From contig NZ_QZWH01000029.1 in NCBI RefSeq assembly GCF_003601925.1, positions 1-60,351 on the forward strand: 60,351 nt of DNA, read 5' to 3'. The notes beneath the pieces are model-generated. The model did not search any database. It was not told the origin of the DNA and saw nothing but the letters and a program-made list of their open reading frames with translations. This DNA is from Buttiauxella izardii. Its GTDB lineage: Bacteria > Pseudomonadota > Gammaproteobacteria > Enterobacterales > Enterobacteriaceae. Both the position numbers and the translations under genes were made by a program. Of the stretch, positions 27,768 to 39,132 are shown piece after piece; the first letter of the stretch is position 1; each line of letters begins with the position of its first letter.

Positions 27768-29456
27768 ATGTACGAATTTAACCTGGTATTACTGCTGCTC
27801 CAGCAGATGTGCGTCTACCTGGTTATCGCCTGGTTGATGAGTAAAACGCGCCTATTTATCCCGTTGATGCAGGTCACCGTACGTTTACCACACAAATTAC
27901 TCTGCTACGTCACGTTTTCCATCTTCTGCATTATGGGCACCTATTTTGGCCTGCATATCGACGACTCCATCGCCAACACGCGAGCGATTGGCGCGGTAAT
28001 GGGCGGCTTGCTCGGCGGCCCGTTAGTGGGTGGGCTGGTCGGGTTGACCGGCGGATTGCACCGTTACTCAATGGGCGGAATGACCGCACTCAGTTGCATG
28101 GTTTCGACCATTATTGAAGGCTTGCTGGGCGGGCTTTTACACCGCTTTTTGATTCGCCGTGGGCGCAGCGATTTATTGTTCAACCCGCTCACCGCAGGCG
28201 GCATTACGCTGCTGGCTGAATTCTTCCAGATGGGCATTATTCTGCTGATTGCTCGCCCGTTTGCTGACGCGCTGAACCTGGTGAAAAGTATTGCCGCGCC
28301 GATGATGGTGACCAATACCGTGGGTGCGGCGCTCTTTATGCGTATTTTGCTTGATAAGCGCGCGATGCTTGAGAAATACACCTCGGCATTTTCCGCCACG
28401 GCGCTAAAAGTCGCTGCCTCTACCGAAGGGATTTTGCGCCAGGGATTTAACCAGGAAAACAGCATGAAAGTGGCGCAGGTGCTGCATCATGAGCTGGATA
28501 TCGGCGCGGTGGCGATCACCGATCATGAAAAGCTGCTGGCTTTTACCGGCATTGGTGCCGATCACCATTTGCCGGGGCGTCCGATCTCATCCGATTACAC
28601 CTGGCAGGCGATTGAGCGCGGCGAAGTGGTGTATGCCGATGGCAACGAAGTGCCCTATCGCTGCTCGCTGCACCCCAACTGCAAACTCGGCTCGACGCTG
28701 GTGATCCCGTTATACGGCGAAAATAGCCGGGTGATTGGCACCATTAAACTGTATGAAGCGAAAAATCGCCTGTTCAGCTCGATAAACCGCACGCTGGGCG
28801 AAGGTATTGCACAACTGCTTTCAGCACAGATTCTGGCGGGGCAATACGAGCGGCAAAAACAGATGCTCACACAGTCGGAAATCAAATTGCTGCACGCGCA
28901 GGTCAATCCGCATTTCTTGTTTAACGCGCTGAATACGCTGGTGGCGGTGATTCGCCGGGATAACGAACAGGCCTGCCAACTGGTGCAATATCTCTCAACG
29001 TTCTTTCGTAAAAACCTTAAGCGCCCGAGCGAGATTGTGACCCTTGCCGATGAAATCGAGCACGTTAATGCGTATCTGCAAATTGAACAGGCGCGGTTTC
29101 AGTCGCGCTTGCGTGTGCAGTTGAACGTTCCACAAAGCCTTGAGCAGGTACGTTTACCGGCATTCACTTTGCAGCCGATTGTCGAAAACGCCATTAAACA
29201 CGGCACTTCACAATTGCTCGGCGTGGGCGAAATCACCATTAACGCCAGCCAAAATGGTGAGCATTTACATTTGTTCGTGGAAGACAACGCCGGGCTTTAT
29301 CAGGAAAACCCATCCGCCTGCGGGCTGGGCATGAGCCTGGTCGACAAACGCCTGCGCGCCCGTTATGGCGACGACTGCGGCATCAAAGTGGACTTTGAAT
29401 CCGACCGATTTACCCGCATCACCCTACGTTTACCTCTGGAGGAAACCCCATGTTAA
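27768..29456 (+). CDS. btsS: Pyruvate-sensing histidine kinase BtsS (YehU)
   Basis: BtsS is the LytS-type sensor kinase that detects extracellular pyruvate in E. coli. The 562-residue protein has an N-terminal 5TMR-LYT membrane domain (about 1-205, several hydrophobic helices with a glycine-rich [18 protein letters not shown] run), a GAF-like domain (about 220-360), the His-kinase segment with [13 protein letters not shown] where His382 is the likely phosphorylated residue, and a C-terminal HATPase domain ([27 protein letters not shown]). It overlaps btsR by seven bases, as expected for a coupled pair. E. coli BtsS has 561 residues. Confidence 0.95.
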
Positions 29457-30178
29457 AAGTGCTGATTGTCGATGACGAGCCGCTGGCGCGTGAGAATCTG
29501 CGCGTCATGCTGCAAAACGAGGCCGATATTGAGGTTGTGGGGGAGTGCGGAAACGCAGTGGAAGCGATTGGCGCGGTGCATCGTTTACACCCGGACGTGG
29601 TGTTTCTCGATATCCAGATGCCGCGCATTAGCGGCCTGGAAATGGCGAGTATGCTCGACCCGGAACAGCGGCCCTACATCGTTTTCCTCACTGCTTTTGA
29701 CGAATACGCGGTGCAGGCGTTTGAAGAACACGCGTTTGACTATTTGCTCAAACCGATAGACGGCAAGCGGCTGGAGAAAACACTGCATCGCCTGCGCCAT
29801 GAACGCGTCGATCAGGACATGACGTTACTGACGCCCAACCAGGAAGATCTCAAATTCATCCCTTGCACCGGGCAAAGCCGAATTTACCTTTTGCAAATGG
29901 AAGAGGTGATGTTTGCCAGCAGCCGCATGAGCGGGGTGTATGTCACCAACGCGCAAGGGAGCGAAGGGTTTACCGAACTCACATTGCGCACCCTCGAAAG
30001 CCGCACGCCGCTGGTGCGCTGCCATCGCCAATACCTGGTGAACATGGCGCATCTTAAAGAGATCCGTTTTGAAGACGGCGGGCAGGCCGAACTGATGCTG
30101 CGCGACGGGCAATCCGTTCCGGTGAGCCGCCGCTATCTTAAAAGCCTGAAAGAGGCGCTGGGGCTGAAAGCGGTGTAG
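29450..30178 (+). CDS. btsR: LytTR-family response regulator BtsR (YehT)
   Basis: BtsR is the DNA-binding partner of BtsS and activates btsT (yjiY) in E. coli. The 242-residue protein has a receiver domain with phosphorylation site Asp54 (VVFLDIQMP) and conserved acidic pair in IVDDEPLA, a linker, and a C-terminal LytTR DNA-binding domain ([14 protein letters not shown] ... [15 protein letters not shown]). Identity to E. coli BtsR is very high throughout. It likely binds the ACCACTCA repeats upstream of the CstA-family gene at 37.3 kb. Confidence 0.95.
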
Positions 30179-30271: not shown

Positions 30272-30742
30272 ATGATGAATAACGACGTATTACGCAGCGT
30301 GCGCTACATGCTGAATTTGGGCAACGACGACATGGTGAAAATCTTCGCCCTGACCGACACTGCCGTGACTGCCGAGCAAATTGTCACCTGGACCAAAAAA
30401 GAAGACGAAGAGAACTTCAAACTTTGCCCGGATATCCTGATGGCAAACTTCCTCAATGGCCTGATTTACTTCAAGCGCGGCAAAGACGAAAGCAAACCTG
30501 CACCAAAAATTGAACGCAAGATGACCAATAACATCATCCTGAAAAAACTGCGTATTGCGTTTGATTTGAAAACTGACGACGTGCTGGAAATTTTGACCAG
30601 CCAGGAATTCCGCATCTCTATGCCGGAAATCACCGCGATGATGCGCGCACCAGAGAACAAAAACTTCCGTGAATGTGGCGACCAGTTCCTGCGCTACTTC
30701 CTGCGTGGTTTAACTTCACGCGTACACGTCGCGAAGAAGTAA
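30272..30742 (+). CDS. yehS: DUF1456-family protein YehS
   Basis: The 156-residue protein equals E. coli YehS in length and shares long identical stretches, such as FLNGLIYFKRGKDES and MPEITAMMRAPENKNFRECGDQFLRYFLRGL. It contains two repeated DUF1456 units (about 1-70 and 80-150), each starting LRSVRYML-like or LKKLRIAF-like. The function is unknown. It follows btsSR in the same direction after 93 bp, as in E. coli. The start ATG at 30272 has AGAGAATC before it. Confidence 0.93.
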   Translation: MMNNDVLRSVRYMLNLGNDDMVKIFALTDTAVTAEQIVTWTKKEDEENFKLCPDILMANFLNGLIYFKRGKDESKPAPKIERKMTNNIILKKLRIAFDLKTDDVLEILTSQEFRISMPEITAMMRAPENKNFRECGDQFLRYFLRGLTSRVHVAKK

Positions 30743-30750
30743 GATTTTAT

Positions 30751-30811
30751 GCGCTTATCCACTCTACGAATGTCTTTCGTAGGTCGGATAAGCGCCAGCG
30801 TCATCCGACGC
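30751..30811. repeat. REP-type palindrome after yehS
   Basis: GCGCTTATCC (30751-30760) with CTACGAA (30764-30770) pairs with TTCGTAG (30776-30782) and GGATAAGCGC (30786-30795) to form a long stem; the typical CAGCGTCATCCGACGC end of a REP follows. It separates convergent yehS and the xdhC-like gene and shares its core with the element at 18647-18735. Confidence 0.85.
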
Positions 30812-31779
30812 TATCCCCGCGCTTCGTTTTTCCGCTTCACAATATCCGCCATCACCGCCAGGGCAATTTCTGCCGGAGTTTTGCTGCCTAACGGCAAGCC
30901 AATCGGCGCATGAATGCGTTGTAATTCTTCCGGGTTTAATTCGGCAATTTTCTGTAACCGCTCCAGCCGTTTCGCGCTGTTCTTCTGCGAGCCCATTGCG
31001 CCAATATAAAACGCAGGCGTATTCACCGCTTCCATCATGGTTAAATCATCCATGCGCGGGTCATGGGTTAGCGCGACAATCGCCGTATTCGCGTGGCAGG
31101 AATTTTGTTCGAGATAGTTCGCCGGGAACTGTTTAAGCAGCGTGATTTCCGACTTGAGCTGTGTGGCGAAGTTCTCCAGCACTTCCGGGCGATTCTCACA
31201 AACTAACACTTCAAAACCGAGCGAGCTGGCAAAATCGGCACAGTACAGCGCCACGCTCGACAGCCCGGCAATCAGCAGGCGCGGGGCGGCGGCAACATGC
31301 AGCGTAATCTGTTGCCCATGGCGCTCAACCTGGGTGATCTCGGCAAACTCAGTGACTTCAAGATGGCAGCAAGGCTCAGGCAGCGTCAGGCGTTTTTGCA
31401 GGGCAAAATGGCCGCTCAGCGCATTTTCCATTTTCTCGAGATAAGCCCCATTTCCCGCCGTGGCGGGCAGATATTCCACCAGAATATCCAGCACGCCGCC
31501 GCAGGGTAGTGCGATCCCCGGTTCCAGTCCGCCTTCGCCATAGCGCACAATTTGGCTGGCTTGCTGGTATTCACCTTGCGCAATACGCTGCAAAAAATCC
31601 TCTTCCACACAGCCGCCGGAAAGCGAGCCGCAAAAGCGGTTGTCGGCGGTGGCGACCATCAGCGCGCCCGGTGAGCGCGGCGATGAACCATAGGTATTTA
31701 ACACGGTACAGAGCCAGACCGGTTGTGCCGTAAGCCACTCTCGCGCCTGGCGAATCACACTCATATCAAGGTGTTGCAC
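30811..31779 (-). CDS. XdhC/PaoD-type molybdenum hydroxylase maturation factor
   Basis: XdhC-family proteins bind molybdenum cofactor, promote its sulfuration and insert it into molybdenum hydroxylases. The 322-residue protein has an N-terminal XdhC/CoxI domain (VLNTYGSSPRSPGALM; CGSLSGGCVEEDF; GLEPGIALPCGGVLDILVE) and a C-terminal Rossmann domain (PRLLIAGLSSVALYCADFASSLGFEV; HDPRMDD; FYIGAMGSQKNSAKRLERL). It lies two bases downstream of a MocA-like gene on the same strand and is divergent from the three enzyme subunit genes, so it is almost certainly the dedicated chaperone of that enzyme. PaoD of E. coli is the closest comparison I know. Confidence 0.9.
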   Translation of the reverse strand: MQHLDMSVIRQAREWLTAQPVWLCTVLNTYGSSPRSPGALMVATADNRFCGSLSGGCVEEDFLQRIAQGEYQQASQIVRYGEGGLEPGIALPCGGVLDILVEYLPATAGNGAYLEKMENALSGHFALQKRLTLPEPCCHLEVTEFAEITQVERHGQQITLHVAAAPRLLIAGLSSVALYCADFASSLGFEVLVCENRPEVLENFATQLKSEITLLKQFPANYLEQNSCHANTAIVALTHDPRMDDLTMMEAVNTPAFYIGAMGSQKNSAKRLERLQKIAELNPEELQRIHAPIGLPLGSKTPAEIALAVMADIVKRKNEARG

Positions 31780-31781
31780 GA

Positions 31782-32360
31782 TTATTTTCTCCCTTGTACC
31801 AGTTGTGATGGAAGGTCGATGTCGCGTTGCGAGTCGCCATCATCAATTTCAATAAAATGCACCGCTTCACCTTTTAACAACTCACGCGCGCCGTTATCGC
31901 CCGTAAGGCCGCACAGTTTGTCGAACCCGGTGTTATCGAATCCCACCGGATGGCCGGGCAGTGAACCCACGCGCGGGCGCACAAGCGGGTAGGTTTTTAG
32001 CGCATCGGCAACTTGCAAGAACACGTCGGGGGGAACAAAGGGCATATCCGCGAGATGAATCAGCCAGCCGTGCCAGTCGGAATTGGCGCGAACTCCGGCG
32101 GCGATGGATTCACCCAAACCTGTGCTGTCGATAAGCGTGACGGGAACCTGCTGCGCATGGCACAAATCCTGAATGTGAGTATTTTCCGGGCGCGTCACTA
32201 CGTGAACCGCAAGATGAGTTGCGCAGGCGTTGTTCAGCGTTTGCGCAAACACGCTGCAATTGTTAAGACGCGCATCCAGTTTATTGCCATTTCCACCTGC
32301 TTCCCGGAAGCGTCTGGCAAACCCGGCGGCGGTGATGATAATGCCCACATTCCTGCTCAA
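31782..32360 (-). CDS. MocA-like molybdenum cofactor cytidylyltransferase
   Basis: The protein of about 192 residues is a MobA/MocA-type nucleotidyltransferase: GIIITAAGFARRF at the start replaces the usual LAAGxSxRMG loop, followed by a conserved lysine in GNKLDARL, HLADMPFVPPDVF with the metal-binding aspartate, and PGHPVGFD. It should make the cytosine-dinucleotide form of the cofactor used by aldehyde-oxidase-type enzymes. The start is probably the TTG at 32360, because GAGGA lies about seven bases upstream; the frame stays open to a GTG at 32387 that has no ribosome-binding site. It pairs with the xdhC-like gene. Confidence 0.85.
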   Translation of the reverse strand: MSRNVGIIITAAGFARRFREAGGNGNKLDARLNNCSVFAQTLNNACATHLAVHVVTRPENTHIQDLCHAQQVPVTLIDSTGLGESIAAGVRANSDWHGWLIHLADMPFVPPDVFLQVADALKTYPLVRPRVGSLPGHPVGFDNTGFDKLCGLTGDNGARELLKGEAVHFIEIDDGDSQRDIDLPSQLVQGRK

Positions 32361-32387
32361 GACTGATTCCTCGGCACTTTTTATCAC

Positions 32388-32566
32388 ACAGATTACGTAA
32401 ATTTGTTGCGCAACTGTTTGCGCAAATATGTTTTTTTTATGAAAATGAGTTGTTAATTCTCACATGATTTAGCTTAAATGGATATACTCATAATCACTAC
32501 GGATATATCTAAATGCTGTGCAATTAGTTCAAAAAAAAGACAATTATAAAATTAACGGGATGTTTT
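32388..32566. promoter_or_regulatory. Divergent control region of the molybdenum hydroxylase locus
   Basis: The gap between the divergent maturation and enzyme operons has two perfect 10-bp palindromes side by side, GTTGCGCAAC (32405-32414) and TTTGCGCAAA (32417-32426), sharing the octamer TTGCGCAA with a 12-bp centre distance. Farther right, GGATATA occurs at 32480 and 32501, a 21-bp direct spacing, in an AT-rich stretch that should contain the enzyme promoter. No regulator gene is adjacent. Confidence 0.5.
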
Positions 32567-35356
32567 ATGAGCAATTTTAATCCATCGCGGCGTCGCTTTA
32601 TAAAAAGCGCCGTCGTAGCAGGAGTCGCGGTCTATCTTGCCCCTCTCTACAGCCGCGCCTACGCAGCATTGTTTGAGGCTAAAATCCTCCAGTCCCCGGA
32701 ATGGGATGCCAAAAACAAACGCGTTCGTTTTCGTATCGACGGCAAATCAAAAGTCATGGGCCAGAAAGTTTTCGCCCGTGATATTCGTGCCGTAGATATG
32801 CCGCACTGGCCGCAGAAACAGGCCCACGCCTTTATTTTGCGCACCACTCAAGCCGACAGGCTGTTTAGCGGTATCGATCTCTCTTTATTAGGCGACGATC
32901 TCAAACCTGACCGTATTGTGACCGCTGAAGATTTGGCGCGCGACGGTTTAGCCTTCCCGGCGTTTTACGGCGAAGACATGCTGCTGCCGACCGGCAAAAC
33001 TCCGGCGTATCTCGGCCAGGCCGTAGCGATTTTGATCTATCACGATTTCGCCCGTTTCCGTTTCGCCAAAGACAAACTGAAATTCAAAGACGAAGTGATC
33101 CAGTATGGCGCAGAAACCGGGCCGCTGGAGCGTGACCCGTGGGGAACCTTCCGCTTTGTGCGCGTCGGCGGGGCCACTTCCCAGGACGACGATAAATTCT
33201 CCAGCCTGAAAGATATGCCCATCTTCCCGGTATCAATGAGAAAGCATCTGCCGGTTTGGCCTGAAGGGCGCGAAGGCGGCAAGCTGGACCAGGAAGGCAT
33301 GTTCTATGCTTCGCAAATTGCCGACGAGCTGAAAAACCCGCCGCAAGACTGGCTGGTAATGAACCGCCGCTACACCACGCAATCTATCGACACCGCCGCC
33401 CTTGAGCCAGATAACTCCAACGGCTGGTTCGACCCCGCCACGCAAACGCTGCATATGGTGGTGCCGACGCAATCCCCGCAGGAAGTGGCCGACGAAATGC
33501 CGCGCATGCTGGCAAAAGCCACGTCGCCGGTAAAACAGCTGATTCTGCATCCGTGTTACACCGTGGGTTACGGCTCGAAAGATCACTACAACTTCCCGTT
33601 TTACGGCGCGGTGGCGGCGATGTATGGCGACGGTCATCCGGTGCGCCTGGCCAACGACCGCTACGAGCAGTTCCAGACCTCGATCAAACGCCACGCGTTC
33701 GACATGAATTACACCATTGCGGTCAACAAACAGACCGGCGTTCTGCAATCGTTTTTAGGCGATATGACCGCCAACGGCGGCGGGCGCAGCAACTTTACGC
33801 CATCAGTTGCCATGGTCGGCGCGACGGCTGCGCAGTCCATTTACTACTTCCCGAAAAGTGATTTGTCGGCGGTTGGCATAGCTTCCCGCGCTATTGACGC
33901 CGGTTCCGCTCGCGGTTACGGCACGCTGCAAAGCATGGCCGCCACTGAAATGATGGTGGATGAAATTGCCGCCGAGCTGAATATCGACCCAATCGAATTC
34001 CGTATGCGCAACGCGCTGAAATCCGGCATGAAAAACACGCAAGGCGCGATTCCTGGCGGGGCGATTCGTGTCGATGAAGTGTTAGCGAAAGCGGCAAAAC
34101 ATGAAATCTGGCTGAAACGCGCTGAACGCAAAGCCGAATTTGAAATGAAAAACCCAGGCAAACGCTACGGCGTCGGCTTTGGCTGCGTGCAAAAAGACTT
34201 TGGCACCGGAGCGGAAACCTCGTTTGCCCGCGTGGAATTGAGTGCTGAAGGGCGCATTACTTTGCACCACAGCGGCGCGGAAATGGGCACCGGCATGTCG
34301 ACTTCACAATCGGTGCTGTGCGCGCAATGGCTGGGCAAACCGGCTGATGAAGCGCATTTCTCCGTTACTGATTGGTCAACGCTGCCGATTGTCACCAGCG
34401 GCGACCCGTACATTATGTCCCAGGAAGAGCAGGACAAACTGGCGGCAAACCCGGCGTGGTCACCGTCTTACTGCTCGCCATCGAGCGCCAGTAACTCGGC
34501 TTTTTACTTCTCCCACAGCACGCGTGAAGCGGCGCGTTTAGTGTTCGAACAGGGCGTGTGGCCTGCGGCGATGGCAATCTGGAGCACCGGAATCGGCGGC
34601 GGCCAGGCGGCTCCGTTGGTGGTGCGTATCGACGACGCCCGTTGGGTGGAAGGTGGCTTAACCGCCGCTGGCATGGAAATTCTCAGCCTCGAAAGAATTG
34701 CGAAAAAGGCCTATGAAATGGGGCTGATGACCGGCGCAGCGGTGCATGTGTTTAACCGTTGGCAGTGGGCAGAAGCCGATTTCAAACTGGGCGAGCAAAG
34801 CAGACGCCTGCCGATTGATGGTTTATCGGTGCGCAACGGCAATGGCGAATTCACCACGCTCGCTCGCGAACACGTTTATTACCCGCCAACCCAGCGTAAC
34901 AACGCGGCGGTGACGTACTACAGCGCGGTCGCCACGCTGGCAGAAATTGCGGTCAGCCTCGCAACGGGTGATGTCGAACTGCTCAATCACCACTCGATTA
35001 TGGAATGCGGCAACTTGATTGTGCCGGAACTGGTTTCCGGGCAGTTGCAGGGCGGCCTGGCGATGGGTATCGGCCACGCGCTCCACGAATATTTACCTCT
35101 CTACGAAGACGGGCCGGGTAACGGAACATGGAACTTCAACCGTTACCACATGCCGCGCGCCAGCGATGTTGCCGTCTGGAAACAGACCGGCGATATCCTG
35201 CCTGCGCTTTCGGAAACTGACCCGCCAAAAGGTATGGCTGAAGTGGTGATGATCCCGGTAGTTGCCGCGATTATTAACGCGCTTGCCGATGCCACCGGCC
35301 ACCGTTTCCGTGATTTGCCTGTCCGTGCTGAAAATATTCGTGAGGTATTACCATGA
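32567..35356 (+). CDS. Molybdopterin-binding subunit of a periplasmic aldehyde/isoquinoline oxidoreductase
   Basis: This 929-residue protein belongs to the xanthine dehydrogenase family, of the IorB-like two-domain type with a Tat signal: Ser7-Arg-Arg-Arg-Phe11-Ile-Lys13 precedes a hydrophobic stretch ending YSRAYA. The molybdenum-site segments GGGRSNFTPSV, GSARGYGTLQSMAATEMMVDEIA and GAEMGTGMSTSQSV are present, and the likely catalytic glutamate is Glu892 in PPKGMAEVVMIP. It should oxidise an aldehyde or N-heterocycle in the periplasm. Its ATGA overlap with the next gene indicates coupling. There is no FAD subunit gene, unlike PaoABC; electrons instead pass via the Fe-S subunit to a cytochrome c. 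Confidence 0.9.
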   Translation: MSNFNPSRRRFIKSAVVAGVAVYLAPLYSRAYAALFEAKILQSPEWDAKNKRVRFRIDGKSKVMGQKVFARDIRAVDMPHWPQKQAHAFILRTTQADRLFSGIDLSLLGDDLKPDRIVTAEDLARDGLAFPAFYGEDMLLPTGKTPAYLGQAVAILIYHDFARFRFAKDKLKFKDEVIQYGAETGPLERDPWGTFRFVRVGGATSQDDDKFSSLKDMPIFPVSMRKHLPVWPEGREGGKLDQEGMFYASQIADELKNPPQDWLVMNRRYTTQSIDTAALEPDNSNGWFDPATQTLHMVVPTQSPQEVADEMPRMLAKATSPVKQLILHPCYTVGYGSKDHYNFPFYGAVAAMYGDGHPVRLANDRYEQFQTSIKRHAFDMNYTIAVNKQTGVLQSFLGDMTANGGGRSNFTPSVAMVGATAAQSIYYFPKSDLSAVGIASRAIDAGSARGYGTLQSMAATEMMVDEIAAELNIDPIEFRMRNALKSGMKNTQGAIPGGAIRVDEVLAKAAKHEIWLKRAERKAEFEMKNPGKRYGVGFGCVQKDFGTGAETSFARVELSAEGRITLHHSGAEMGTGMSTSQSVLCAQWLGKPADEAHFSVTDWSTLPIVTSGDPYIMSQEEQDKLAANPAWSPSYCSPSSASNSAFYFSHSTREAARLVFEQGVWPAAMAIWSTGIGGGQAAPLVVRIDDARWVEGGLTAAGMEILSLERIAKKAYEMGLMTGAAVHVFNRWQWAEADFKLGEQSRRLPIDGLSVRNGNGEFTTLAREHVYYPPTQRNNAAVTYYSAVATLAEIAVSLATGDVELLNHHSIMECGNLIVPELVSGQLQGGLAMGIGHALHEYLPLYEDGPGNGTWNFNRYHMPRASDVAVWKQTGDILPALSETDPPKGMAEVVMIPVVAAIINALADATGHRFRDLPVRAENIREVLP

Positions 35357-35907
35357 GCATCAAAACTAAACCAATGACCCTGACCATCAACAACAAACCG
35401 TACGGCCCGATTGATGTGCCGGAAGGGTTGATGATGATCGATTTCCTCCACGAATACGTTTATCTGACCGGTTCGCGCCTTGGTTGCGGGCAGGGCATTT
35501 GTCACGCTTGTGTGGCGATTGTCGATAACCCAAGCGGCACCAGCGAAGAAGTGCGCACCTGCATTACCGGCGCACATTTCTTTAACGGCAAAAAAGTCCG
35601 CACCGTGGAAGGCCACGCCAAAGTCGATGAGCAAGGCGAAGTCGTCGAGCTTTCGCCGATCCAGCAATCTTTCCTCGATCATTACAGCTTCCAGTGCGGC
35701 TACTGCACGCCAGGCTTTGTGAATGCCGCGACGATTTTTGTTGAGAAACTCAAGCGCGAGCCCATCGAACGCGACGAACTGGAAGGCGCAATTTCCCAGG
35801 CGCTGGAAAACCACATCTGCCGCTGCACCGGCTACGTGCGTTACTACGAAGCCGTGCGCGACGTGGTGCTGAAAACGCCGGGGCTGGTGAAGGAGGCGGT
35901 GAAATGA
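35353..35907 (+). CDS. 2x[2Fe-2S] subunit of the molybdenum hydroxylase
   Basis: The 184-residue subunit carries two [2Fe-2S] clusters: a plant-ferredoxin-type site with Cys45, Cys50, Cys53 and Cys70 (GCGQGICHAC), and the helical C-terminal site with Cys115, Cys118, Cys156 and Cys158 (QCGYCTPGF, ICRCTGY). It has no signal peptide and presumably is exported together with the Tat-tagged large subunit. It overlaps both neighbours by four bases (ATGA). It transfers electrons from the molybdenum centre to the cytochrome encoded next. Confidence 0.94.
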   Translation: MSIKTKPMTLTINNKPYGPIDVPEGLMMIDFLHEYVYLTGSRLGCGQGICHACVAIVDNPSGTSEEVRTCITGAHFFNGKKVRTVEGHAKVDEQGEVVELSPIQQSFLDHYSFQCGYCTPGFVNAATIFVEKLKREPIERDELEGAISQALENHICRCTGYVRYYEAVRDVVLKTPGLVKEAVK

Positions 35908-37145
35908 AAAAGCGTCTCGCGCTAATCGTACTGGTGATTATCGCCATTATCGTGGCGATTCTGTACTGGCGGGAATACCGCACGTATGACGGCCCGGTGC
36001 AAAAAGTCACCGCCAGCAAAGAGCAAATCGAGCGCGGCAGTTATCTTGCCAAAGCGGCTGACTGCGCGGCTTGCCACACGGCATCCGGCGGCGCACCGCT
36101 GGCGGGTGGCTATCCGCTGGAATCCCCGTACGGCACAATTTACGGCAGCAACCTGACGCCATCGGCTGATTACGGGATTGGCCGCTGGACGAAAGATGAT
36201 TTCTATAAAGCGCTGACCGAGGGCGTTGGCCCAACCGGACGCCATCTGTTCCCGGCGATGCCGTACACCTCGTACAAAAACATTTCGCGCCAGGATTCAG
36301 ACGACATTTATGCGTATCTGATGACCCGCCCGGCGGTAGACGTGAAAACGCCGGATAACGAAATGAGCTTCCCGTTCAACCAGCGTATCGCGCTGATTGG
36401 CTGGAATATCCTGTTCCACAGCAAAGATCCGCTGCCTGCGATTTCTACCGGCAACTCTGCCGACTGGCAGCGTGGACGTTATCTGGCGGACGTGCTCGGG
36501 CACTGTGGCGAATGCCATACCGAGCGCGGATTACTCGGCCAGATGAAGCTCGACAAAGCGATGCAGGGTGGGGAACTTGGGCGCTTTATGGCGCCGGATA
36601 TTACGCCGAAAGCATTAGCGCAACGCGGCTGGACGCCGGACGACGTGAAACAATTCCTCACCACCGGCATTGCGCCACAGGGCAGCGCGTTTAGCGAAAT
36701 GCATATGGTGGTGGATCTGAGCACGCAGCATTTGACGCCTGAAGATCAAAAAGCGATGGCGACGTATCTGATGGGCGAAGCGCCTCCGGCGGCGATCCCG
36801 GCGAAACTCGGCCAGGGCAACGAGGCAGGGCGCATGACCTATCTCGACCAGTGCGCTGGCTGCCATGCCCGTGAAGGCGAAGGCAAACCGCACGTTGCTG
36901 TTTCCATGCTGAACAACGCCACGCTGCGCCAGCCGGATGCGAAGAACCTGATCGTTTCGGTTATGGACGGTCTGCCTGCGCAAAACTTCCCGAACGGGGA
37001 AAGCATGCAGAGTATGCCAGGGTTTGGTGATCGTCTGGATGATGCGCAGATTGCGGAGCTGGTAAATTACCTGCGCGTGACGTGGGGTGGTTTGCCGGGG
37101 GATGTGACGGCGGATCAGGTGAAGGCGCTGAGGCCTCAGAAGTAG
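35904..37145 (+). CDS. Membrane-anchored triheme cytochrome c subunit
   Basis: The 413-residue protein has one N-terminal membrane helix (about residues 4-21) and three heme c attachment motifs: CAACH (54-58), CGECH (201-205) and CAGCH (317-321), each in a cytochrome c domain with downstream methionines. It matches the cytochrome subunits of acetic-acid-bacteria alcohol and aldehyde dehydrogenases and of nicotinate or isoquinoline dehydrogenases. It should pass electrons from the molybdenum hydroxylase to the quinone pool or a terminal oxidase. It depends on the Ccm system for heme attachment, not in this window. It is followed by a palindromic repeat. Confidence 0.92.
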   Translation: MKKRLALIVLVIIAIIVAILYWREYRTYDGPVQKVTASKEQIERGSYLAKAADCAACHTASGGAPLAGGYPLESPYGTIYGSNLTPSADYGIGRWTKDDFYKALTEGVGPTGRHLFPAMPYTSYKNISRQDSDDIYAYLMTRPAVDVKTPDNEMSFPFNQRIALIGWNILFHSKDPLPAISTGNSADWQRGRYLADVLGHCGECHTERGLLGQMKLDKAMQGGELGRFMAPDITPKALAQRGWTPDDVKQFLTTGIAPQGSAFSEMHMVVDLSTQHLTPEDQKAMATYLMGEAPPAAIPAKLGQGNEAGRMTYLDQCAGCHAREGEGKPHVAVSMLNNATLRQPDAKNLIVSVMDGLPAQNFPNGESMQSMPGFGDRLDDAQIAELVNYLRVTWGGLPGDVTADQVKALRPQK

Positions 37146-37152
37146 TGTAAGG

Positions 37153-37197
37153 CCCTCACCCTAACCCTCTCCCTCAGGGAGAGGGCCGGGGTGAGGG
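37153..37197. repeat. CCCTCACCC/GGGTGAGGG repeat, minimal one-hairpin form
   Basis: The shortest complete copy: left arm CCCTCACCCTAACCC, one CCCTCTCC/GGAGAGGG hairpin, right arm CCGGGGTGAGGG, orientation A. It begins 7 bp after the cytochrome stop codon and ends 8 bp before the ACCACTCA array, and could insulate the following promoter. Confidence 0.9.
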
Positions 37198-37205
37198 TGA
37201 TTAAA

Positions 37206-37254
37206 ACCACTCACCCCCCATTTCCAACCACTCACACGCAAATACAACCACTCA
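37206..37254 (+). promoter_or_regulatory. Triple ACCACTCA array, probable BtsR binding sites
   Basis: The octamer ACCACTCA occurs at 37206-37213, 37227-37234 and 37247-37254. The first two are separated by 13 bp and the last two by 12 bp, so all three face about the same side of the helix. As I remember it, the published BtsR (YehT) site upstream of E. coli btsT is two copies of ACC(G/A)CT(C/T)A with a 13-bp spacer, which fits exactly. The last copy ends 78 bp before the start of the CstA-family gene; poor promoter elements (TTGCAC at 37271, CATAGC at 37293) fit an activator-dependent promoter. BtsR is encoded 7 kb upstream. Confidence 0.8.
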
Positions 37255-37332
37255 CCAAAACTCCCACTCCTTGCACCCCCGCCCCATGCCAGCATAGCGC
37301 TGAATTTTTTCTCTTTGGCTCTGGAGTGGGTT

Positions 37333-39132
37333 ATGCAACACGCACTAACGTTTGTTATCGCGACCCTGTGTATTCTGGCTATCTGCTATCGCCTTTACGG
37401 GGTGTTTTTCGTCCGTAAAGTTCTGAAGGCTGATGACTCTGAAATCACACCGTCACATGTTCTTGAGGACGGCAAAGACTACGTCCCGACTAAAAAATGG
37501 GTTAACTTCGGCAGCCACTTTGCTGCGATTGCCGCCGCTGGCCCGTTGGTTGGCCCGGTTCTGGCCGCGCAATATGGTTATCTGCCAAGCTTCCTGTGGT
37601 TGGTGATTGGCTGTGTGGTGGGCGGCGCGGTGCACGACACCGTGGTGCTGTTCGCCTCCATGAAACACCGTGGAAAGTCGCTCTCAGAAGTGGCAAAAGC
37701 GGAGCTTGGCCCGGTCGCTGGCTGGTGTACTGGCCTGGCGATGTTATTCATTATCACCATCACCATGGCGGGTTTATCGATGGTTGTGGTGCACGCGCTG
37801 GAACGTAACCCGTGGGGCACGTTTGCGGTGTTTATGACTATCCCGGTGGCGATTTGCGTTGGCCTGTGGGAACGCTATACCGGCAGCATGCGCGGCGCGA
37901 CCTGGGTGGGGATTATCGTTATCTTCGCCTGCGTGATCATCGGCCCATATATCCAGGAATCGTCATTCGGCGAATGGCTGAGTCTGCGCGCTTCAACCGT
38001 CAGCCTGGTGCTGCCGTTCTACGCCTTCTTTGCCACCGCTTTGCCGGTGTGGATGCTGCTGACCCCGCGCGGTTACCTTTCAAGCTTTATGAAAATCGGC
38101 GTGTTCGGCGCGCTGGTGGTGGGCGTGGTGTTCATCAACCCGGAAATTCAGTTCCCGGCGGTGACGCAGTTTATCCACGGTAATGGCCCAGTTCTGGCTG
38201 GCCCAGTCTGGCCGTTTATCTCTATCACCATCGCCTGTGGCGCGATTTCTGGCTTCCATGCGTTTATCGGTTCCGGCACCACGCCAAAACAAATCGACAA
38301 ATGGAACGACATTCTGCCGGTGGCTTTCGGCGCGATGTTGGCGGAATGCGTGGTGGGCGTAATGGCACTGATTGCTGCCACGGCGCTGCATCCAGCAGAT
38401 TACTTCGCGATTAACTCCGCACCGGAAGTGTTTGCTGGTTTGGGCATGAACGTGGTGAATCTGCCGCAGTTGAGCGAATCCATCGGCCTGGATTTATACG
38501 GTCGTACCGGCGGGGCGGTGACGCTGGCGGTCGGCATGGCGGATATCTTCACCCGCATACCATGGTTCAGCCATCTGGCGTCTTACTTCTTCCAGTTCGT
38601 GGTGATGTTCGAGGCGGTGTTTATTCTGACGGCGGTGGACTCCGGTACTCGCGTCGCACGTTATTTACTGCAAGATTTCCTCGGTGATATCTGGGCTCCG
38701 CTCAAACGCACTAACTGGATGCCAGGCGCGATTGGTTGCAGCATCGTGGCTTGCCTGTTATGGGGTTACTTGCTGAACTCCGGCGATATCAACTCGGTGT
38801 GGGCGCTGTTTGGCGTATCTAACCAGTTAATGGCGTCGATTGGCCTGATGATTGGCGCGACCATTATCCTGCGCATGTCAGAAAAACGCTGGTACGTACT
38901 GACTTGCCTGGTGCCGTTGTCGTATCTGTACGTGACGGTCAACTACGCAGCGTACTGGATGGTGAAAAACGTCTACTTCAACAGCGCCGCGAAAGGTTTC
39001 AACATCTTCAACGGCACGATTTCCATTGTCATGGTCGCGTTGGGCCTGGTGATTATGGTGGCGTCGATTCAACGCTGGTTCGTGCTGTGGCGTGCTCGCG
39101 GGAATAACGAGCCGATTGAGTTGTTGTCTTAA
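37333..39132 (+). CDS. CstA-family peptide/pyruvate transporter, short form
   Basis: The 599-residue inner-membrane protein has the CstA signatures GSHFAAIAAAGPLVGPVLAAQYGYLP, ITIACGAISGFHAFIGSGTTPKQI and FEAVFILTAVDSGTR, with about 16 hydrophobic segments. E. coli BtsT (pyruvate) and CstA (peptides) have about 716 and 701 residues, so this is a shorter paralogue lacking the long inserted loop and C-terminal part. The ATG at 37333 was chosen for its GGAG six bases upstream; the frame is open from a TTG at 37315. The BtsR-like array in its promoter suggests pyruvate-responsive expression, and it may import pyruvate (inference). The gene ends at a terminator. Confidence 0.88.
   Translation: MQHALTFVIATLCILAICYRLYGVFFVRKVLKADDSEITPSHVLEDGKDYVPTKKWVNFGSHFAAIAAAGPLVGPVLAAQYGYLPSFLWLVIGCVVGGAVHDTVVLFASMKHRGKSLSEVAKAELGPVAGWCTGLAMLFIITITMAGLSMVVVHALERNPWGTFAVFMTIPVAICVGLWERYTGSMRGATWVGIIVIFACVIIGPYIQESSFGEWLSLRASTVSLVLPFYAFFATALPVWMLLTPRGYLSSFMKIGVFGALVVGVVFINPEIQFPAVTQFIHGNGPVLAGPVWPFISITIACGAISGFHAFIGSGTTPKQIDKWNDILPVAFGAMLAECVVGVMALIAATALHPADYFAINSAPEVFAGLGMNVVNLPQLSESIGLDLYGRTGGAVTLAVGMADIFTRIPWFSHLASYFFQFVVMFEAVFILTAVDSGTRVARYLLQDFLGDIWAPLKRTNWMPGAIGCSIVACLLWGYLLNSGDINSVWALFGVSNQLMASIGLMIGATIILRMSEKRWYVLTCLVPLSYLYVTVNYAAYWMVKNVYFNSAAKGFNIFNGTISIVMVALGLVIMVASIQRWFVLWRARGNNEPIELLS

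Follow-up and report, generated by a model that had tools for sequence, protein, structure and literature searches.

The window analysed here is a stretch of 60,351 nucleotides of the Buttiauxella izardii genome (contig NZ_QZWH01000029.1). Its forward strand carries btsS (27768-29456), encoding a LytS-type pyruvate sensor kinase with 5TM-5TMR_LYT, GAF and His_kinase domains, and btsR (29450-30178), encoding a LytTR response regulator that scores 402.8 bits against the NCBIfam BtsR equivalog NF008677 (cut-off 246). BtsS and BtsR are 83% and 79% identical, respectively, to their E. coli counterparts. BtsR conserves D9 and D54, and BtsS conserves H382 as well as R72, R99, C110 and S113, the latter four being pyruvate-site residues according to the available text of PMC10653868. 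A BtsSR regulon calls for orthologs of both proteins in the same genome, and B. izardii has both. It encodes two LytTR regulators in all; the second, on another contig (C41), is of the YpdB type and 34% identical to BtsR.

A yehS-type gene (30272-30742, forward strand; DUF1456, PF07308) follows btsR as it does in E. coli. The interval beyond it (30811-37145) is occupied by what we call the cargo: XdhC-like and MobA-like genes on the reverse strand, divergent from a forward-strand operon for the large and small subunits of a molybdopterin oxidoreductase, including an Fe-S subunit, and a cytochrome c. After a repetitive palindrome and the array of boxes described below comes the gene for a short CstA-family transporter of 599 amino acids, here named S (37333-39132, forward strand). 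From the end of btsR to the start of S we measure about 7.15 kb, in line with the 7 kb given by the first-pass annotation.

Upstream of S the octamer ACCACTCA occurs three times on the forward strand, at 37206-37213, 37227-37234 and 37247-37254. Our sequence scan confirms that all three boxes are perfect and that they are spaced by 13 bp (boxes 1 and 2) and 12 bp (boxes 2 and 3). Boxes 1, 2 and 3 lie 127, 106 and 86 bp from the ATG at 37333, box 3 being nearest the promoter, and the array was rightly recognised as BtsR-type. Box 1 aligns in many relatives at about -125. Directly 5' of box 1 is the palindrome (37152-37200, forward strand), an inverted repeat with a fold z-score of -5.28 that we take to be REP/BoxC-like. 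Of 5426 E. coli genomes searched with a 187-base query containing it, 2214 gave a match, the palindrome being the matched part in the 20 cases listed; in another Buttiauxella locus (L007) the 18 bases preceding box 1 do not match it.

The BtsR motif has been published as a pair of ACC(G/A)CT(C/T)A boxes. Membership in the BtsSR regulon can be judged by the presence of at least two such boxes, 12-13 bp apart, upstream of the target, and this is what we find at S. The octamer occurs six times in the window against a shuffle mean of 1.24, a count of six being reached in 1 of 100 shuffles. Neither exact nor degenerate triples arose on either strand of 200 simulated windows, and the looser CCRCT-core triple arose once. 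We also searched the genome for the spaced motif, as had been suggested: scanning all 4.77 Mb with ACCRCTYA-N10..15-ACCRCTYA returned the two overlapping pairs of the S array and no other consensus pair that could point to further BtsR targets, while the reversed control pattern gave one match.

S covers positions 2-557 of the 560 in the CstA-family profile PF02554, with 601.9 bits (cut-off 27), a near full-length match that bears out its description as a CstA-type transporter of 599 residues. It scores 469.9 bits against the NCBIfam CstA equivalog NF011590, far below the cut-off of 1188, and is not a CstA ortholog by this measure. Nor does it group with btsT, whose members in our sample share at least 80% identity and are about 716 amino acids long. 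Its identity to E. coli BtsT and CstA is 42% over aligned residues, compared with 63% between BtsT and CstA themselves, and its alignment with BtsT leaves out some 30 N-terminal residues, one internal stretch and C-terminal parts of BtsT. The closest named relatives of S are found in Buttiauxella. The genome has one other CstA-family gene, its own cstA on contig C9, whose product is 92% identical to E. coli CstA. A full-length btsT, sought elsewhere in the B. izardii genome, is absent: the best matches of the BtsT query are the CstA-family genes on C9 and S, at 63% and 46%. The earlier statement that the transporter is not BtsT therefore stands. In Ewingella americana (L026, 12153-13871), another gene of the CstA family lies just downstream of S, with which it shares 41% identity; given its full PF02554 match, it may be cstA itself.

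How S relates to BtsT can be judged from their distribution. Our family sample comprised 149 genomes from 148 genera, nearly one genome per genus. A CstA-family match was present in 90 genomes, 76 of which have an intact BtsR ortholog (at least 56% identity). All 76 carry exactly one of btsT (63 genomes) or S (13 genomes); none has both and none has neither. Among the 14 genomes with a CstA-family match and no intact BtsR, 13 are without intact btsT or S; the 14 include one with btsT and BtsR fragments (G028), counted as neither, and one with a marginal match (G135). The single intact btsT without BtsR is in G111, which also has the only one of 64 btsT promoters without an array (L184). This genome measures 2.7 Mb, its BtsT is 80% identical and we found no BtsR ortholog in it. 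In another genome (G046), S and the BtsR ortholog are on separate contigs. The association of BtsR with btsT or S has a Fisher P-value of 8.5e-15 with genomes treated as independent, an assumption whose kinship problem is softened by sampling nearly one genome per genus. We take the counts as complete: the matches listed lack only the weak end of the ranking, and the orthologs of btsT, S and BtsR head it.

From this exclusive pairing we infer that S fills the role that BtsT has in E. coli, with every BtsR genome in the sample retaining one of the two. BtsSR control of S, as first proposed, is thus probable: the genome has no btsT, and every genome with intact BtsR in the sample has btsT or S. 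Could S be under BtsR without being a pyruvate transporter, importing another overflow metabolite or peptides with pyruvate as a mere cue? The modest identity to BtsT and CstA and the missing segments of BtsT would allow for this. However, S and btsT interchange one for one under the same regulator. Moreover, as far as the consulted parts of the two papers go, BtsT and CstA both import pyruvate in Salmonella Typhimurium (PMC9504724), and in Vibrio campbellii a lone BtsSR system is accompanied by just one transporter for pyruvate, BtsU (PMC10653868). A change of substrate is the least improbable of the alternatives we considered, yet we hold it to be unlikely.

The 7 kb between btsSR and S might be taken for the original layout, and the comparison with relatives speaks against this. 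We collected 80 named S loci, some of which come from groups of closely related strains or species (Buttiauxella, 12 Yersinia, Azospirillum). The BtsR gene is found in the fetched flank in 58 of them, less than 300 bp from the S start in 31; BtsS alone is found in 3 and neither gene in 19, 12 of which are Yersinia, some flanks ending at contig ends. S looks like an old partner of BtsSR because its start is within 300 bp of btsR in those 31 loci. In Budvicia (L032, 616-2468), the array and S come straight after btsS, with no btsR between.

The content of the gap varies. Seven Buttiauxella loci (L007-L012 and L034) have the molybdopterin-oxidoreductase cargo after yehS and before S; it was not found in loci L013-L016. 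L013 has a different, smaller insert; two Atlantibacter loci (L014, L015) and one recorded as Citrobacter freundii (L016) have yehS in a gap of roughly 665 bp; and the gap between btsR and S in G130 (L256) holds other, unrelated cargo, namely a TonB receptor, a hydrolase and a NUDIX protein. Since btsSR directly adjoins S in many relatives and the gap cargo differs among loci, the 7 kb is best read as a later insertion, the array staying with S. It looks as if the cargo operon split btsSR from S in Buttiauxella.

Another genome, G060, may preserve a trace of exchange between the two transporters. It has a btsT with its own array (L163) and a second, orphan array at the btsS stop (L242, 695-743), with the S-type spacing of 13 and 12 bp, the btsS stop codon overlapping the end of box 1 and no transporter downstream. 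Beyond the array, the sequence looks like a promoter and is similar, on visual inspection, to the gap between btsS and S in Budvicia (L032); a tblastn search for an S remnant after the array gave no significant match. We read the orphan array as the probable scar of an exchange of S for BtsT.

The published motif is a pair, and the third box had been regarded as a local extra. We compared promoter sets selected by gene, not by motif: 64 btsT promoters (at least 80% identity), 13 S promoters (at least 83%) and 23 cstA promoters as controls, all from the 149-genome sample. A three-box score of at least 20/24 is reached by 63 of 64 btsT promoters, by 12 of 13 S promoters (the remaining one scores 19) and by none of the 23 cstA promoters; no shuffle attained it (0/640, 0/130 and 0/230, respectively). 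Among the 80 named S promoters, 60 reach this score and 20 fall below it (shuffles, 1/800). In promoters from outside the Enterobacterales, what is left of the octamer is its core, CCRCT. Exact CCRCT triples are present in 70 of the 80 named S promoters, a set ranging from Alpha- to Gammaproteobacteria, including 35 of the 39 from other orders than the Enterobacterales (controls: 0/4000 shuffles, 3/80 on the reverse strand). In the sample, exact CCRCT triples occur in 11 of 13 S promoters, 41 of 64 btsT promoters and 0 of 23 cstA promoters, leaving 2 S and 23 btsT promoters without one. Spacers of 12/12, 12/13, 13/12 and 13/13 all occur in btsT promoters, and S promoters mostly have 13/12. The E. 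coli K-12 btsT promoter itself reads GCCGCTCA-N12-ACCGCTTA-N13-ACCACTCA, its own third box matching at 7/8. Three boxes are the rule in the btsT and S promoters of relatives, E. coli included, and the idea of a third box peculiar to Buttiauxella has to be rejected.

It may still be asked whether only two adjacent boxes function, the third being a relic or a coincidence. LytTR sites, those of YpdB especially, are treated as a repeat pair in the available text of PMC4847170, and one outer box is degenerate in several btsT promoters, for example L170 (box scores 8, 8, 4), L180 (8, 7, 5) and L182 (5, 8, 7). Yet when the best pair alone is held in place, 59 of 64 btsT promoters, 11 of 13 S promoters and 66 of the 80 named S promoters have a further box scoring 6/8 or more at 20-21 bp on one side of it; at control offsets, such a box turns up in 2.7%, 11.5% and 6.2% of trials, respectively. 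Upstream of the fixed pair the mean score peaks at 20 bp in btsT promoters (5.14, against a mean of 2.63 at other offsets); in S promoters the peak is at 21 bp (5.38 vs 2.61). Across the 63 btsT arrays the mean scores of boxes 1, 2 and 3 are 7.54, 7.71 and 7.40 of 8, the middle box being the best-conserved position in btsT and in the 13 sampled S arrays (7.77/8). The core triple is maintained from Azospirillum to the Enterobacterales. A working pair with a dispensable neighbour is quite unlikely in the face of these figures.

Consensus pairs also occur elsewhere, being found in 119 of 295 family genomes. We inspected 14 places chosen by eye from those listed (L242-L255), in addition to the G130 gap and a known btsT promoter (L257). 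One apparent new target (L254) turned out to be a btsT promoter, and 11 of the remaining 13 fall inside mechanical reading frames. The last two are L242, the orphan array beside btsS described above, and L248, where the pair occupies a small intergenic space flanked by genes whose domains are of kinase, GAF and response-regulator type.

YpdB (PyrR) offers a comparison: like BtsR at S, it belongs to a LytTR pyruvate system, although its box sequence and its target, yhjX, are different and its site is printed as an A/B pair in what we could consult of PMC4847170. We assembled 20 yhjX promoters (19 best-ranked matches and one at 73% identity) which, with that of E. coli K-12, make 21 (L221, L222-L241). 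All 21 show three in-phase boxes with a period of 21, the third lying 5' of the A and B sites already in print and being weaker in most (6-9 of 10). At the fixed 21-bp offset a box of at least 6/10 is found in 21/21 promoters vs 28/546 control positions, and no shuffle in 420 reached the lowest real score (23). The offset profile also peaks 16, 20 and 25 bp upstream because of the internal CATT repetition of the box. The yhjX promoter of B. izardii (L229) has the YpdB-type box GGCATTTCAT upstream, unlike the BtsR-type box. It is highly improbable that the regulator acting on the S array is a different LytTR protein, for instance the one of YpdB type encoded on C41: the genome does have two such regulators and YpdB-type operators also have three boxes at period 21, but the YpdB-type box is different and precedes this genome's own yhjX, and the presence of the array tracks that of BtsR.

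We consider, with a probability of roughly 0.8, that the array serves the BtsS/BtsR pyruvate system as its operator, in a three-site LytTR form conserved over an interchangeable transporter, here S in place of BtsT. The natural form of this operator would be three head-to-tail boxes with a CCRCT core and a period of 20-21 bp, that is, two helical turns, which would set three BtsR molecules on one face of the DNA. Guided by the sequential binding of YpdB to its A and B sites, described in the portion of PMC4847170 at hand, we suggest that phosphorylated BtsR most likely occupies the middle box first and that the neighbouring boxes, the third included, are then filled cooperatively. BtsR would bring RNA polymerase to a weak promoter lying beyond box 3, and S, driven in this way, would replace the function of E. 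coli BtsT, with pyruvate presumably acting as both signal and substrate. A probable weak sigma-70 promoter can be proposed at 37271-37298 on the forward strand (TTGCAC at 37271-37276, a 16-bp spacer and CATAGC at 37293-37298); a scan of 37100-37345 for strict consensus sigma-70 promoters and terminators found nothing. Counted from the start of box 3, TTG-like columns occupy +24 to +26 in Enterobacterales S promoters, and 32 of the 41 have TA at +48. No -10-like element is fixed relative to box 3 in btsT promoters.

The E. coli BtsS/BtsR-btsT system (formerly YehU/YehT-yjiY) resembles the one described here in its orthologous kinase and regulator, its box, its three boxes at 20-21 bp and its CstA-family target. 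It differs in that the B. izardii target is a short, distant CstA-family paralogue, in the order of spacers (13/12 in B. izardii vs 12/13 in E. coli) and in its box 1, GCCGCTCA in E. coli, whereas all B. izardii boxes are perfect. Some elements were anticipated. The accessible portion of PMC5552118 lists BtsSR targets adjoining btsSR in Aeromonas and Vibrio (AHA_2620, AHA_3292, M892_07975) and one in Yersinia that is not marked as adjacent; it reports that activation of an E. coli yjiY reporter was conserved in most species tested, and that no recognisable motif was found in Serratia marcescens or Aeromonas hydrophila. Like those targets, S lies close to btsSR, and most Aeromonas loci we examined have S beside btsSR. 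The core CCRCT triple is present in the named Aeromonas loci, A. hydrophila not being among them, and may be the answer to the missing Aeromonas motif. V. campbellii BtsU may likewise belong with S. Three direct repeats are also known from the operators of RcoM1 and CoxC, LytTR proteins responding to CO, with a spacing of 12-13 bp for RcoM1, whose site differs from the canonical LytTR pair, and intervals of 18-21 bp for CoxC, as given in the text seen of PMC11347149. They are like the BtsR array in this respect, although regulators and signals differ. No printed statement of the third box turned up in the part of the literature searched, figures aside. Within that literature, the system is known and S as a target is partly anticipated, while the rule of three boxes, the one-or-the-other pairing with BtsR and the probable scar of an exchange appear to be new.

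With less confidence than for the operator itself, we favour a broader view, in which the pair model drawn from E. coli, for BtsR at btsT as for YpdB at yhjX, is incomplete. The real unit would be a three-site cooperative array nucleating on the middle box, fixed across Proteobacteria while the transporter is swapped, and orphan arrays would be the scars of such swaps. If true, this would put right how a model LytTR operator is understood. At btsT, the three-box stretch of E. coli sits inside the binding oligonucleotide used in PMC4847170; from what is available of that paper, both its yjiY and yhjX oligonucleotides contain the third box, and its yhjX A- and B-site variants left it intact. The sequential AB-BA binding kinetics could therefore be retested with the third box in mind. 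For the yjiY promoter there is also a Reg-Seq mutational scan (PMC7567609), and the region mutated in it appears to include the BtsR site. The locus would also provide a natural case of a conserved operator and sensor with an exchanged transporter. Three CCRCT boxes would be a better search pattern where the pair motif was reported missing, and a BtsSR-controlled importer would be predicted in genera without btsT.
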